From a virus: a DNA stretch of 32,376 bases. The position numbers and the translations under genes were made by a program. Position 1 is the stretch's first letter. Each line of letters opens with the position of its first letter. Positions 10,044 through 28,530 of this stretch are shown piece after piece. The notes below the pieces were generated by a model. That model was not told the origin of the DNA. It saw only the letters and a program-made list of their open reading frames with translations, and searched no databases. The stretch is from IMG/VR virus record IMGVR_UViG_3300029309_003678, positions 1 to 32,376 of that record; one strand, written 5' to 3'.

Positions 10044-10760
10044 TTAGCCTATTTCTTTTCTAGCTGCACCATTGTAATCAGCACATTGTAGACCCCTTCT
10101 GGTCAACATTGTTTTAACGCCTCTTACTGTTTTGCCGATATCATCAGCAATTTCTTGAACAGTCATTTCAGAAATATCAAGGTCAGCTAAAACGTCAGCT
10201 TTAGATGAACCTTTTGTGTGTTCTTGCTTAGGAATAGCGTTGATGTCACCACTTCTAAGTAATGAAAGAGCTTTACCTCTGATAGAATTAACACTTTTAC
10301 CTAGGCTTTCTGCGATAGCTTCTACGAAAGCGCCATCGTTAACCATAGAGATGAAAGTAGCTTCTTCTTCAGGTGTATAAGTTCTAACACTTTCTACTTT
10401 AGGAGCAGGCTTAACATGCTCTGTTAGTTCCATAGAAAGAATTTTTCCTTGAATAGACTTCGCACTAAAGTGTCCGCCTTCAAAGTTTTCAGCAATTTCT
10501 GCGTATGTGTATGCGCCAGAGTTATCTTGAACGAAATTGCTTAGAGTTGCTTCTTGCTCTTCTGAGAAGGACTTAGAAGCTGATGCTGAAGCTAATTCAA
10601 CATCGAAACCCATTTTTCTTAGCTTAGAAGATACACTTCTTGTAGAAGTTTCTAAATCTTCAGCAGCTTCTGCAACCATTGCCTGTGTTACAGGACTTGA
10701 ATCACCGACGAAGTCCACTAGTTGCTGTGTTCTTTCGTCTGTCCATTTTGGTAATGCCAT
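10044..10760 (-). CDS. DNA-binding protein with four SANT/Myb-like HTH repeats
   Basis: 238 aa built of about four tandem helix-turn-helix units: WTDERTQQLVDFV...TRSVSSKLRKMG (about 6-50), FSEEQEATLSNFV...SAKSIQGKILSM (about 64-110), YTPEEEATFISMV...SVNSIRGKALSL (about 127-168) and MTVQEIADDIGKTVRGVKTM (about 199-218). Each ends in a recognition-type helix of the form S-x-R/I-x-x-K. A single-subunit tandem array suggests sequence-specific binding or a structural, histone-like role. A strong terminator follows directly, so it may be made at higher levels than the downstream replication genes. It overlaps nothing and abuts LigA-C. Related single-unit proteins occur at 14.5, 22.4, 23.5 and 28.2 kb. 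Confidence 0.8.
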   Translation of the reverse strand: MALPKWTDERTQQLVDFVGDSSPVTQAMVAEAAEDLETSTRSVSSKLRKMGFDVELASASASKSFSEEQEATLSNFVQDNSGAYTYAEIAENFEGGHFSAKSIQGKILSMELTEHVKPAPKVESVRTYTPEEEATFISMVNDGAFVEAIAESLGKSVNSIRGKALSLLRSGDINAIPKQEHTKGSSKADVLADLDISEMTVQEIADDIGKTVRGVKTMLTRRGLQCADYNGAARKEIG

Positions 10761-13461: not shown

Positions 13462-13760
13462 CCGATATGTTCTACATCACTTGGAGGAATAACTTGGTAT
13501 GCACCTTTGTTGTATGCTGGTGCAACAGTATACTTCTTACTGATTTCAACTTTCCATGAGTTATCCACTGCTGTTCCCTTGCCCGCATTGGTGGAGCTGA
13601 CTGGGGTCGAACCAGCGACCTTCGCAGTGCAAGTGCGACGCTCTCCCATCTGAGCTACAGCCCCCTGTTTCCAAGTAGACTTAGGGGATTTACGCTTAGT
13701 GCGTATCCTTTTTCGTTTGCGACCATACTGGTCATATCCTAAACTTCCTTTTATTATCAT
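13455..13760 (-). CDS. Small reading frame interrupted by a tRNA gene
   Basis: A 101-codon frame made of three parts. Residues 1-32 are protein-like and basic (MIIKGSLGYDQYGRKRKRIR). Residues 33-58 are the read-through of a tRNA-Ala (GAVAQMGERRTCTAK). The C-terminal part is again protein-like (SWKVEISKKYTVAPAYNKGA, ending HIGK). The ATG is 7 nt after the -10 box of P5, so the first part would be leaderless. The last part can stand alone as a 37-aa gene from GTG 13568, with AAGGGA 7 nt upstream. Excision of the tRNA by RNase P and RNase Z would cut the mRNA between the parts. It is either two small genes around a tRNA or one gene split by tRNA insertion. Confidence 0.5.
   Translation of the reverse strand: MIIKGSLGYDQYGRKRKRIRTKRKSPKSTWKQGAVAQMGERRTCTAKVAGSTPVSSTNAGKGTAVDNSWKVEISKKYTVAPAYNKGAYQVIPPSDVEHIGK
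13589..13664 (-). tRNA. tRNA-Ala (anticodon UGC)
   Basis: 76 nt including an encoded 3' CCA. The acceptor stem pairs GGGGCTG with CAGCTCC and carries the G3-U70 pair that is the alanine identity element. The D arm starts TAGCTCAG, the anticodon arm is TCGCA-CTTGCAC-TGCGA with anticodon TGC, and the T loop is TTCGACC. All arms are intact, so it looks functional. It lies wholly inside the 13455-13760 reading frame on the same strand. UGC reads GCA and other GCN codons, which are common in the phage genes. Confidence 0.95.
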
Positions 13761-14473: not shown

Positions 14474-14917
14474 TTAATTGTTTAAGTTATTTACTATACC
14501 TGTAAAGTATACTGCTGCTTTACCTGTCAACTTTGATATAATCGCAGCGTCAACTTCTTGACCTGCATCTGTCAAAGCACTTGTAAGGTCGGCTTGTGCG
14601 CCTGCAACACTTACTCTACCGCCACCGCTTGAGCCACTAGAACTACTCTTTGCTGGTGTCTTTCTGACATATACACCTGCCTTTGTAAGTATCATTCTAA
14701 CACCGTTAGGAGATTCTTCTAACTGCTCAGCGATATCTTTTACAATCTCCATACTATTTTCTGGAGTTGGTTCTTCTGCAGTATACATATCTACTGCCTC
14801 TTGTTTTTTCTCGTCTGTCCAAGACATACTTTTTCTCCTTTTATTTTTGTAAGATTCTGGCAAGCCGGGACACCACCCTGTCGCTTGTCTCATCTGCGTG
14901 TAAAATCTATCACTCAT
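14474..14917 (-). CDS. SANT-like HTH protein with two possible starts
   Basis: 147 aa from ATG 14917, or 117 aa from ATG 14827. The first ATG is 6 nt after the -10 box of P6 (leaderless). The second has a strong AAAAGGAG ribosome site, which the long form reads in frame as lysine/arginine codons. The SANT-like unit starts MSWTDEKKQEAVDMYTAEE and ends SPNGVRMILTKAGVYV. A Ser/Gly-rich linker (SSSSGSSGGG) joins it to a C-terminal helical part (ADLTSALTDAGQEVDAAIIS). The upstream 30 residues (with ATGWCPGLPESYKNK) look protein-like. The gene is monocistronic, between P6 and a terminator, suggesting strong expression. Confidence 0.8.
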   Translation of the reverse strand: MSDRFYTQMRQATGWCPGLPESYKNKRRKSMSWTDEKKQEAVDMYTAEEPTPENSMEIVKDIAEQLEESPNGVRMILTKAGVYVRKTPAKSSSSGSSGGGRVSVAGAQADLTSALTDAGQEVDAAIISKLTGKAAVYFTGIVNNLNN

Positions 14918-26928: not shown

Positions 26929-26967
26929 ATTATAACACGCACTAAGGGTGTTGTCAAGAACTATTTT
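26929..26967 (-). promoter_or_regulatory. Consensus phage promoter P12
   Basis: AAAATAGTTC abuts TTGACA (26952-26957), with a 17-nt spacer and TATAAT (26929-26934). It drives the 26892-23355 operon through an SD-containing leader. Confidence 0.9.
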
Positions 26968-27004: not shown

Positions 27005-28090
27005 GACAAAAAGAAAGGCAGATATGAAATCTGCCTCACTTAATACTTCGCGTAGTCGACCTGAGCGAAGGGACACTATCAAAGAAGTTCCAATCCTTGG
27101 TCGCCCACTATGACTTGCACATGGTTGGACAACACCCCCAAATCTCATTCTTGCCTCGGCACTTTTCAGTCTCTAATCTAGCCGTTTTAATTCCTTCGCC
27201 TTGCTACCGAATCGGTTGAGAGGGCGAGCATTAGTGAGAGTTTGGTTTTAAAGTTGTGGTAGGTCGGCATTGAATTACGACTCGCGTAGTCAACCTACAC
27301 CTTTCACAACTTATCTCCTCTTGTTGTTAATGCGTAGCTTTTATACTCGTCCACGGCTGGAGTTTTTATACTTAGTGCTAACTGCCCCACTTGCCCTCTG
27401 TCAATGCCTAAAGGCAAATTACAAGGGTATCCTCGCAGTTAGCGATGAAGTTCTCTATACGCCTATGCCACTCTTAATCATGTGTCGCTTGGCTCTGTAA
27501 ACTTCTTCGCCCGAATACTAACCTATGCTCGCATTTACTTGAGGGGCGAGGGCACGACTTATGTCTATTCCACTACGCCTAGCACACTGAAGTTAGCTAA
27601 GTGTTGGTTTGGTCGAGAACTCCAACAAACTCCCAAGCGAGTTCAAGATGTGCTTGGAACAACTACAACACTTTGAGCATGGTTGTCATACTAGGTTGGT
27701 AGAGCCGTTCTTATGGTAGCTCTCTACATCTGATATTATCGCTGTATCCACCCGTTCAATCGCGTGCAGATTTACTGTTTTACTACTGTAATACTGCATA
27801 ATCCCGTAGGTTTTACGAGCACTGCTCGCTCTCGATAGTGGGGTTGCTAGGTTTACTACTACCGCTCACAAGTGAGGCTTACTGTAGTTTTACTACTAGC
27901 TATTGCCACTTACCCTTAACGACTAGAGTTGCCGATAGCGACTCCCTTTTGTCTTATCGCGGAACAAATATCTTTGCTATTAAGGTCAAAATCCGCACTG
28001 CCTTCTTTTACAGAGGTCGCAGTTCTCCTCTTTGGGTCGGCAACATCTGCAATGTGCCGTTATCTTTTTTGTCTCTTTTTTAAAATTTAT
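27005..28090 (-). ncRNA. Candidate giant structured non-coding RNA (about 1.08 kb)
   Basis: No credible gene on either strand for 1.1 kb, yet a consensus promoter (P13) and a textbook terminator bound it. Perfect complementary arms are abundant and nested: GCTAACTGC/GCAGTTAGC (27377-27385 with 27435-27443, 9 bp, enclosing TGCCT/AGGCA); AAGTTGTG/CACAACTT (27251-27258 with 27305-27312) enclosing GTAGGT/ACCTAC and GACT/AGTC; AAGTGTTG/CAACACTT (27599-27606 with 27666-27673) enclosing CCAAGC/GCTTGG; GCTAG/CTAGC (27846-27900) enclosing CTCAC/GTGAG; CGAGC/GCTCG (27816-27828); and CGGCA with its partner (28038-28059). Base composition is richer in GC than nearby genes. Size, phage setting and folding recall the GOLLD/ROOL class of ornate RNAs, but family membership cannot be assigned here. 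Confidence 0.8.
27008..27036 (-). terminator. Intrinsic terminator of the giant RNA
   Basis: On the minus strand AGGCAGAT, loop TTCAT, ATCTGCCT (27029-27036 with 27016-27023, 8-bp perfect stem), then TTCTTTTT. Confidence 0.9.
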
Positions 28091-28096
28091 AATAAT

Positions 28097-28135
28097 ATTA
28101 TACTCGGCTTTTGGGGATTTGTCAAGAAGTTTTTT
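28097..28135 (-). promoter_or_regulatory. Consensus phage promoter P13 for the giant RNA
   Basis: AAAAAACTTC abuts TTGACA (28120-28125), with a 17-nt spacer and TATAAT (28097-28102). The predicted start is near 28090, and no start codon with an open frame follows. Confidence 0.88.
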
Positions 28136-28173: not shown

Positions 28174-28530
28174 CTACTGTGCTTCGAGGTGGTCAGCCAA
28201 CCTTGCTAAATCAGCTTTAGTAGCTTTAGCAATACTAGGTATTTCGATACCAAGTGCTTTGTGTATTCTGTCCACAAACTCGGACTTTAACACTACAGGC
28301 TCTCCTGCTTTGGTCACTCTTGGTTGAGCGACATAGACACCTTCTCTTGAAAGCTTAGCAATAATACTTCTTGCATTTTTGCCAAGTTTCTCAGCCAACA
28401 TATCAACTGTGTCTCTTGTTGGATTTGCTTTGTAAGTATCAATCATCATGCTTACATCTTTTTCTGAATAATTTTTTACTGTTGCCATTTCTTCTCCTTT
28501 TCTTGTAAATAGTTTTGTAATCCATTTCAT
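28174..28530 (-). CDS. SANT-like HTH protein with leaderless and SD starts
   Basis: 118 aa from ATG 28530, or 104 aa from ATG 28488. The first start is 7 nt after the -10 box of P14 (leaderless); the second (MATVKNYSEKDV) has AAAAGGAG upstream, read in frame as KGEE in the longer form. The SANT-like unit SEKDVSMMIDTYKANPTRDT, then NARSIIAKLSREGVYV, parallels the 23548-23871 protein, as does the TKAGEPVVLK linker and the helical C terminus (IAKATKADLARLADHLEAQ). Likely DNA-binding. The gene is single, between P14 and P13. Confidence 0.8.
   Translation of the reverse strand: MKWITKLFTRKGEEMATVKNYSEKDVSMMIDTYKANPTRDTVDMLAEKLGKNARSIIAKLSREGVYVAQPRVTKAGEPVVLKSEFVDRIHKALGIEIPSIAKATKADLARLADHLEAQ

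Follow-up and report, generated by a model that had tools for sequence, protein, structure and literature searches.

A giant structured RNA of an environmental T5-like phage, probably founding a family of its own

The locus and its predicted transcription unit

The window, by which we mean the whole stretch of 32,376 nucleotides that was analyzed, is a 32 kb virus record with a T5-like gene order: ligase, D5-like protein, replicative helicase, primase, polymerase A, and helicase. This order matches the replication region of T5-like phages (Demerecviridae, e.g., Vibrio phage VCPH), and Demerecviridae polymerases are ∼44% identical to that of the window. The window also carries a dihydroorotate dehydrogenase gene (PF01180; 20305–21468). 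About 15 kb upstream of its replication genes are the following features:

28174–28530, minus strand: gene of 118 aa with a helix-turn-helix-like product, adjoining the RNA unit across homologues
28097–28125, minus strand: sigma-70 promoter of the giant RNA, TTGACA-17-TATAAT, 12/12 match to consensus
27008–28090, minus strand: giant structured non-coding RNA of ∼1,080 nt, identified as a promoter-to-terminator unit with no conserved open reading frame (ORF), with homologues and with covariation
27008–27037, minus strand: intrinsic terminator, with an 8–9 bp stem (27037–27015) and a 5-nt loop followed by TCTTTTT

A preliminary description of this DNA had reported a consensus promoter firing into the segment and a terminator stem with a T run at its end. 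Both were found as claimed. The RNA is predicted to start at ∼28090 on the minus strand, and a second 12/12 promoter at 26957–26929 starts the next unit or gene. As judged from these signals, the minus strand of 27005–28090 is a stand-alone predicted transcription unit. Its GC content is 44.7%, versus 35.8% for the whole window. In the 42 kb stretch of Vibrio phage VCPH inspected, which lies outside the early region, D5 is not flanked by a gap this large.

The preliminary description had also seen no believable gene in this 1.1 kb and had named conserved translated proteins as evidence that would count against an RNA. Possible ORFs on the two strands are 48 to 132 aa long. However, tblastn searches with the six longest revealed no conserved counterpart in homologues, only fragments that were often interrupted by stop codons. 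The 118-aa protein encoded upstream has a weak match to phrog_323 ("D5-like regulator"), and its AlphaFold model is all-helical (pLDDT 85). A fold search gave no significant match to it, and it had no match among 50,697 phage records.

Nested perfect helices of 5 to 9 bp had been put forward as evidence of an ornate structure. There are 10 perfect helices of at least 8 bp in the RNA, compared to a mean of 5.4 and a maximum of 11 in dinucleotide shuffles, and two of at least 9 bp, compared to a mean of 1.6. The folding-energy z score is −2.0, versus −4.0 for the opposite strand and −5.2 for a coding control from the same phage. The helix counts and folding energy of the lone sequence do not exceed chance, and perfect helices in a single sequence are a poor argument. 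We judge the ornate structure to be real because its helices covary among homologues, not because of single-sequence folding.

Homologues, covarying core, and peripheral modules

The gene upstream of the RNA has 78 related viral loci. In L002 to L057, as far as the contigs reach, it is followed by 0.6 to 1.3 kb in which no ORF is consistent, with a promoter at one end and, in most, a recognizable terminator at the other. Conserved blocks common to the window and its homologues were found by blastn, and scans with RNA motifs only recovered further units. In IMG/VR this amounted to 84 promoter-bounded units, 72 of them non-redundant, with a median length of ∼950 nt. Nearly all homologues have a promoter at the corresponding point before the RNA unit. 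With a summed score of 100 bits as the threshold, 65 of the 72 non-redundant units fall into one similarity network. Because this score sums several short matches, it reflects blocks in common and not resemblance over the full length. For the most diverged units (L019/L025, L038, L042, L053, L054, and L112), position is the sole basis for inclusion in the family. Among loci found through the CCAUAAGAACGG module alone, the same upstream gene was present in all 13 with enough upstream sequence (4 of which are near-duplicates). Two other CCAUAAGAACGG matches of the collection scan fall inside ORFs (L117 and L120). There was no DNA match to the RNA in isolated phages (50,697 phage records), and the RNA motif was not found in cellular genome contigs. 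The upstream gene occurs once in cellular genomes, on a 4.4 kb contig whose bin is assigned to Flavobacteriaceae; this does not prove a host. The RNA family is known here from environmental contigs only.

In a seven-way alignment, near-identical blocks alternate with arms that a sequence either has in full or lacks altogether. Conservation is highest in the central blocks (27814–27377), and both ends are variable. The elements of this core are as follows:

27783–27809, minus strand: helix P0, first stem of a pseudoknot (27809–27806 with 27786–27783), with compensatory changes
27765–27798, minus strand: helix P1, crossing P0 (27798–27794 with 27769–27765), with compensatory changes
27732–27748, minus strand: helix P2 (GATA 27748–27745 with TATC 27735–27732), 96.8% paired, with double changes
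27633–27657, minus strand: helix P3, 6 bp (27657–27652 with 27638–27633), 5 of 6 pairs changed on both sides
27603–27626, minus strand: helix P4, 5 bp (27626–27622 with 27607–27603), closing a highly conserved loop
27442–27510, minus strand: core block C with helix P5 (27505–27500 with 27452–27447; GCC 27493–27491 with GGC 27463–27461), by inspection
27377–27443, minus strand: helix P6, 9 bp (27443–27435 with 27385–27377), kept across two clades

P0 and P1 were counted on a hand-corrected alignment, which leans toward the proposed structure, because in some rows of the automatic alignment A1 the position of P1 is off by one base. On it, 61 of 64 P0 cells are paired (95%) and 14 are doubly changed; for P1 the values are 77 of 80 (96%) and 33. 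None of 500 shuffles reached these values in either helix, and slid registers gave 36 to 44% pairing for P0 and 20 to 50% for P1. One P1 pair has an E value of 0.029 on a tree-based null. The order of the strands is 5′-P0-P1-P0′-P1′-3′, and therefore P0 and P1 form an H-type pseudoknot. Support for P2 is post hoc because its register was found by a one-base slide. Within P3, pair 27656:27634 is paired in 19/19 sequences (E = 0.0024 in a full-length scan). P4, part of covariance model R1, is 100% paired, with double changes in three pairs. Taking P3 and P4 together, 97% of cells are paired and 26 are doubly changed, versus 5.6 in shuffles. The compensatory changes in P5 (GAAGTT/AACTTC, GGAGTT/AACTCC, and GCAATCT/AGATTGC) come from inspection only. 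In P6, double changes affect five pairs and extend over two clades, and the covariance model of this helix, R2, has matches in both, with E values down to 1e-17. R2 gave 31 matches at E ≤ 0.05 over 72 sources, and those checked against unit coordinates fall within RNA units.

Compensatory changes have thus been counted in six core helices, two of which form the pseudoknot, and shuffle and slide controls back those in P0, P1, P3, P4, and P6. These pair-by-pair tests covered the core and only a minor part of the 1,080 nt outside it. The tree-based null, which we wrote ourselves after the R-scape idea, gave E values of 0.0011 to 0.045 for individual pairs, and a separate clade added two further pairs, each 14/14 paired. 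We rely mainly on the helix-level counts because this statistic raised one alarm at a non-pairing position: a strong pair in the L008 clade was paired in only 4/14 sequences, so it is not a base pair and is probably an alignment artifact. We also dropped a proposed pairing between the P4 loop and block C (GAGUUCUC with GAGAACUC), as inspection found that it is not kept in L082, L087, and L089.

The preliminary description had suggested collecting phage homologues and testing their covariation. There are many homologues and their helices covary, and we consider it virtually certain that this is a real structured RNA family. The drawable ORFs could instead be taken to mean a cluster of small genes, or the segment could be plain intergenic filler. 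However, the ORFs are not conserved, and covarying helices and long near-identical non-coding blocks already contradict such a reading, which is scarcely credible.

Around the core, stem-loop modules have been gained, lost, and moved among family members. Those in the window are as follows:

27703–27720, minus strand: CUACCAUAAGAACGG stem-loop, recurring on varied stems and in varied places in 19 of 72 units
27524–27589, minus strand: module CAGUGUGCUAG...CUCAAGUAAAUGCGAGCAUA, present or absent as a whole block among homologues
27046–27070, minus strand: hairpin with a GUCGAC palindrome loop that is constant while its stem changes (CTTCGC/GCGAAG, CTGGC/GCCAG)

In the IMG/VR scan the CUACCAUAAGAACGG module was found mostly within such RNA units, and the CAGUGUGCUAG...CUCAAGUAAAUGCGAGCAUA module was found in six contigs of the collection. 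The giant RNA of many relatives contains another module, GAUAACAAACCRAUUU..YGGUAGCAAC (AACAAACC..GGUAGCAAC). It also caps a lone stem-loop in short phage-gene leaders, before a gene that by eye is Hsp20-like (L129, L130, L133, L135, L138, L140, L142, and L146) or before other phage genes (L143 and L132). The motif CCCACGC..AGUAGGG occurs in normal and circularly permuted orders in different units (L004, L008, L014, L018, L096, L118, and others), as would be expected if this is an internal-loop module that either end can lead into.

Relation to GOLLD, ROOL, and tRNA neighbors

At gathering score, the 1.3 kb surrounding the RNA matched no Rfam family, and relaxing the limit to E ≤ 10 gave only three weak matches, to eukaryotic microRNA and retroviral families. 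In 26 RNA-bearing homologous loci (20 + 6), tRNAs were the only matches at gathering score. The GOLLD (RF02032) and ROOL (RF03087) covariance models gave nothing above noise in eight phage records. Even at E ≤ 10, neither GOLLD nor ROOL matched the window; the control genomes of the direct ROOL search contained no ROOL, so that search had no positive control. Full-text searching of the open-access literature turned up no account of this RNA. It very probably lies outside all Rfam families.

GOLLD and ROOL form RNA-only cages whose suggested cargo is tRNAs or ribosomes, and tRNA islands are reported near both (PMC12286853). The present RNA is like GOLLD in its very large size, phage origin, structure, variable periphery, and, in some members, tRNA neighbors, and like ROOL in being a large ornate phage RNA (PMC12286853). 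However, GOLLD is described with a universally conserved 3′ region and a less conserved 5′ region (PMC12286853), whereas the core is central here and the RNA is fixed beside one small gene. The ROOL model has 574 positions, whereas most members of the present family are longer and have exchangeable modules.

A Rfam search of the minus strand had been recommended, with the forecast of either a divergent GOLLD or ROOL or a new family. The new-family half of that forecast is supported because Rfam was negative and there are many homologues with covarying helices. A very diverged GOLLD or ROOL would share the size class, the phage origin, and the tRNA neighbors of many members, but neither model matches even at E ≤ 10 and the conserved core is not where GOLLD has its conserved region, making this relationship very unlikely. 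By loose standards for a giant ornate phage RNA (at least ∼600 nt, non-coding, elaborate covarying secondary structure), the RNA is of this kind, and the sequence comparisons assign it to a new family that is neither GOLLD nor ROOL.

Several relatives have a tRNA or tRNA-like element near the RNA, whereas the window does not. The only tRNA of the window is tRNA-Ala (TGC; 13589–13664), 13 kb from the RNA. A tRNA-Glu (TTC) lies ∼1 kb from the CCAUAAGAACGG module in L111, L115, L116, L119, L122, L124, L125, and L128, and in most of these loci it separates the upstream gene from the RNA. At 13 loci (L018:533, L014:1406, L048:5572, L087:4788, and nine others) the upstream gene and the giant RNA are separated by another small structured RNA, a tRNA-like element, which is absent from the window. 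Within a long variable outer stem, it has a near-constant AAGUGUCUACGGAAGCAC followed by a mimic of a tRNA T arm, and some loci have a second T-arm-like hairpin. None of the loci checked yielded an ARAGORN call for this element, whose scores in L014 and L018 fall short of the Rfam cutoffs of the tRNA type.

Possible functions

From its host-type promoter, the giant RNA would be transcribed early by host RNA polymerase. It might then accumulate as a free compact particle and act through its three-dimensional shape. The likeliest role would be scaffolding or assembly, whether the partners are copies of itself or molecules of the phage or host (tRNAs, for example); a role of this kind has been proposed for GOLLD and ROOL. 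We put the probability of this model, a new giant RNA of T5-like phages with most likely a structural or assembly role, at about 0.5; the step from a structured RNA to assembly is one that we infer. A bolder version, which we hold only tentatively, is a third self-assembling family of giant phage RNAs, independent of GOLLD and ROOL. Its interchangeable stem-loops would be mounted on a fixed, pseudoknotted core, so that different phages make different particles from a shared parts list. There is no direct sign of self-assembly. The GUCGAC loop is a possible dimer contact and the sole hint of self-contact in the window, but it is confined to the window and three relatives (4 units), and for this reason we rejected a palindromic kissing loop.

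The main rival to the assembly model is that the RNA serves as a decoy or sponge, sequestering a host or phage protein such as an RNase, ribosomal protein, or translation factor, with the mobile stem-loops as putative binding sites. Module motifs do turn up on more than one stem and at more than one position, and the AACAAACC..GGUAGCAAC module also occurs by itself in short phage-gene leaders, which fits a protein-binding site. However, the conserved pseudoknotted core exceeds a string of binding sites, and we consider this reading rather unlikely. A CsrA sponge in particular is unlikely, with three ANGGA motifs versus 6.6 in shuffles. Less probable still is a regulatory RNA acting with the adjoining helix-turn-helix-like protein on early phage transcription. 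The gene and the RNA unit are adjacent throughout and the protein is weakly D5-like with an all-helical model, but the two have separate transcription units, their adjacency may reflect stable gene order only, and proteins that look similar by eye (10044–10760 and 14474–14917) have no such RNA alongside. A large RNA with a covarying pseudoknot could also be a ribozyme or other catalytic RNA, but no Rfam ribozyme or intron matched, and we think this highly improbable.

GOLLD and ROOL are the two classes of giant ornate phage RNA met in our searches, and the RNA described here would be a third, unrelated family. Its ∼70 natural variants, with a defined core and swappable modules, offer material for structure work and for finding the features common to giant phage RNAs. 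The fixed link to one small gene and the frequent tRNA or tRNA-like neighbors are testable clues to what such RNAs may do.
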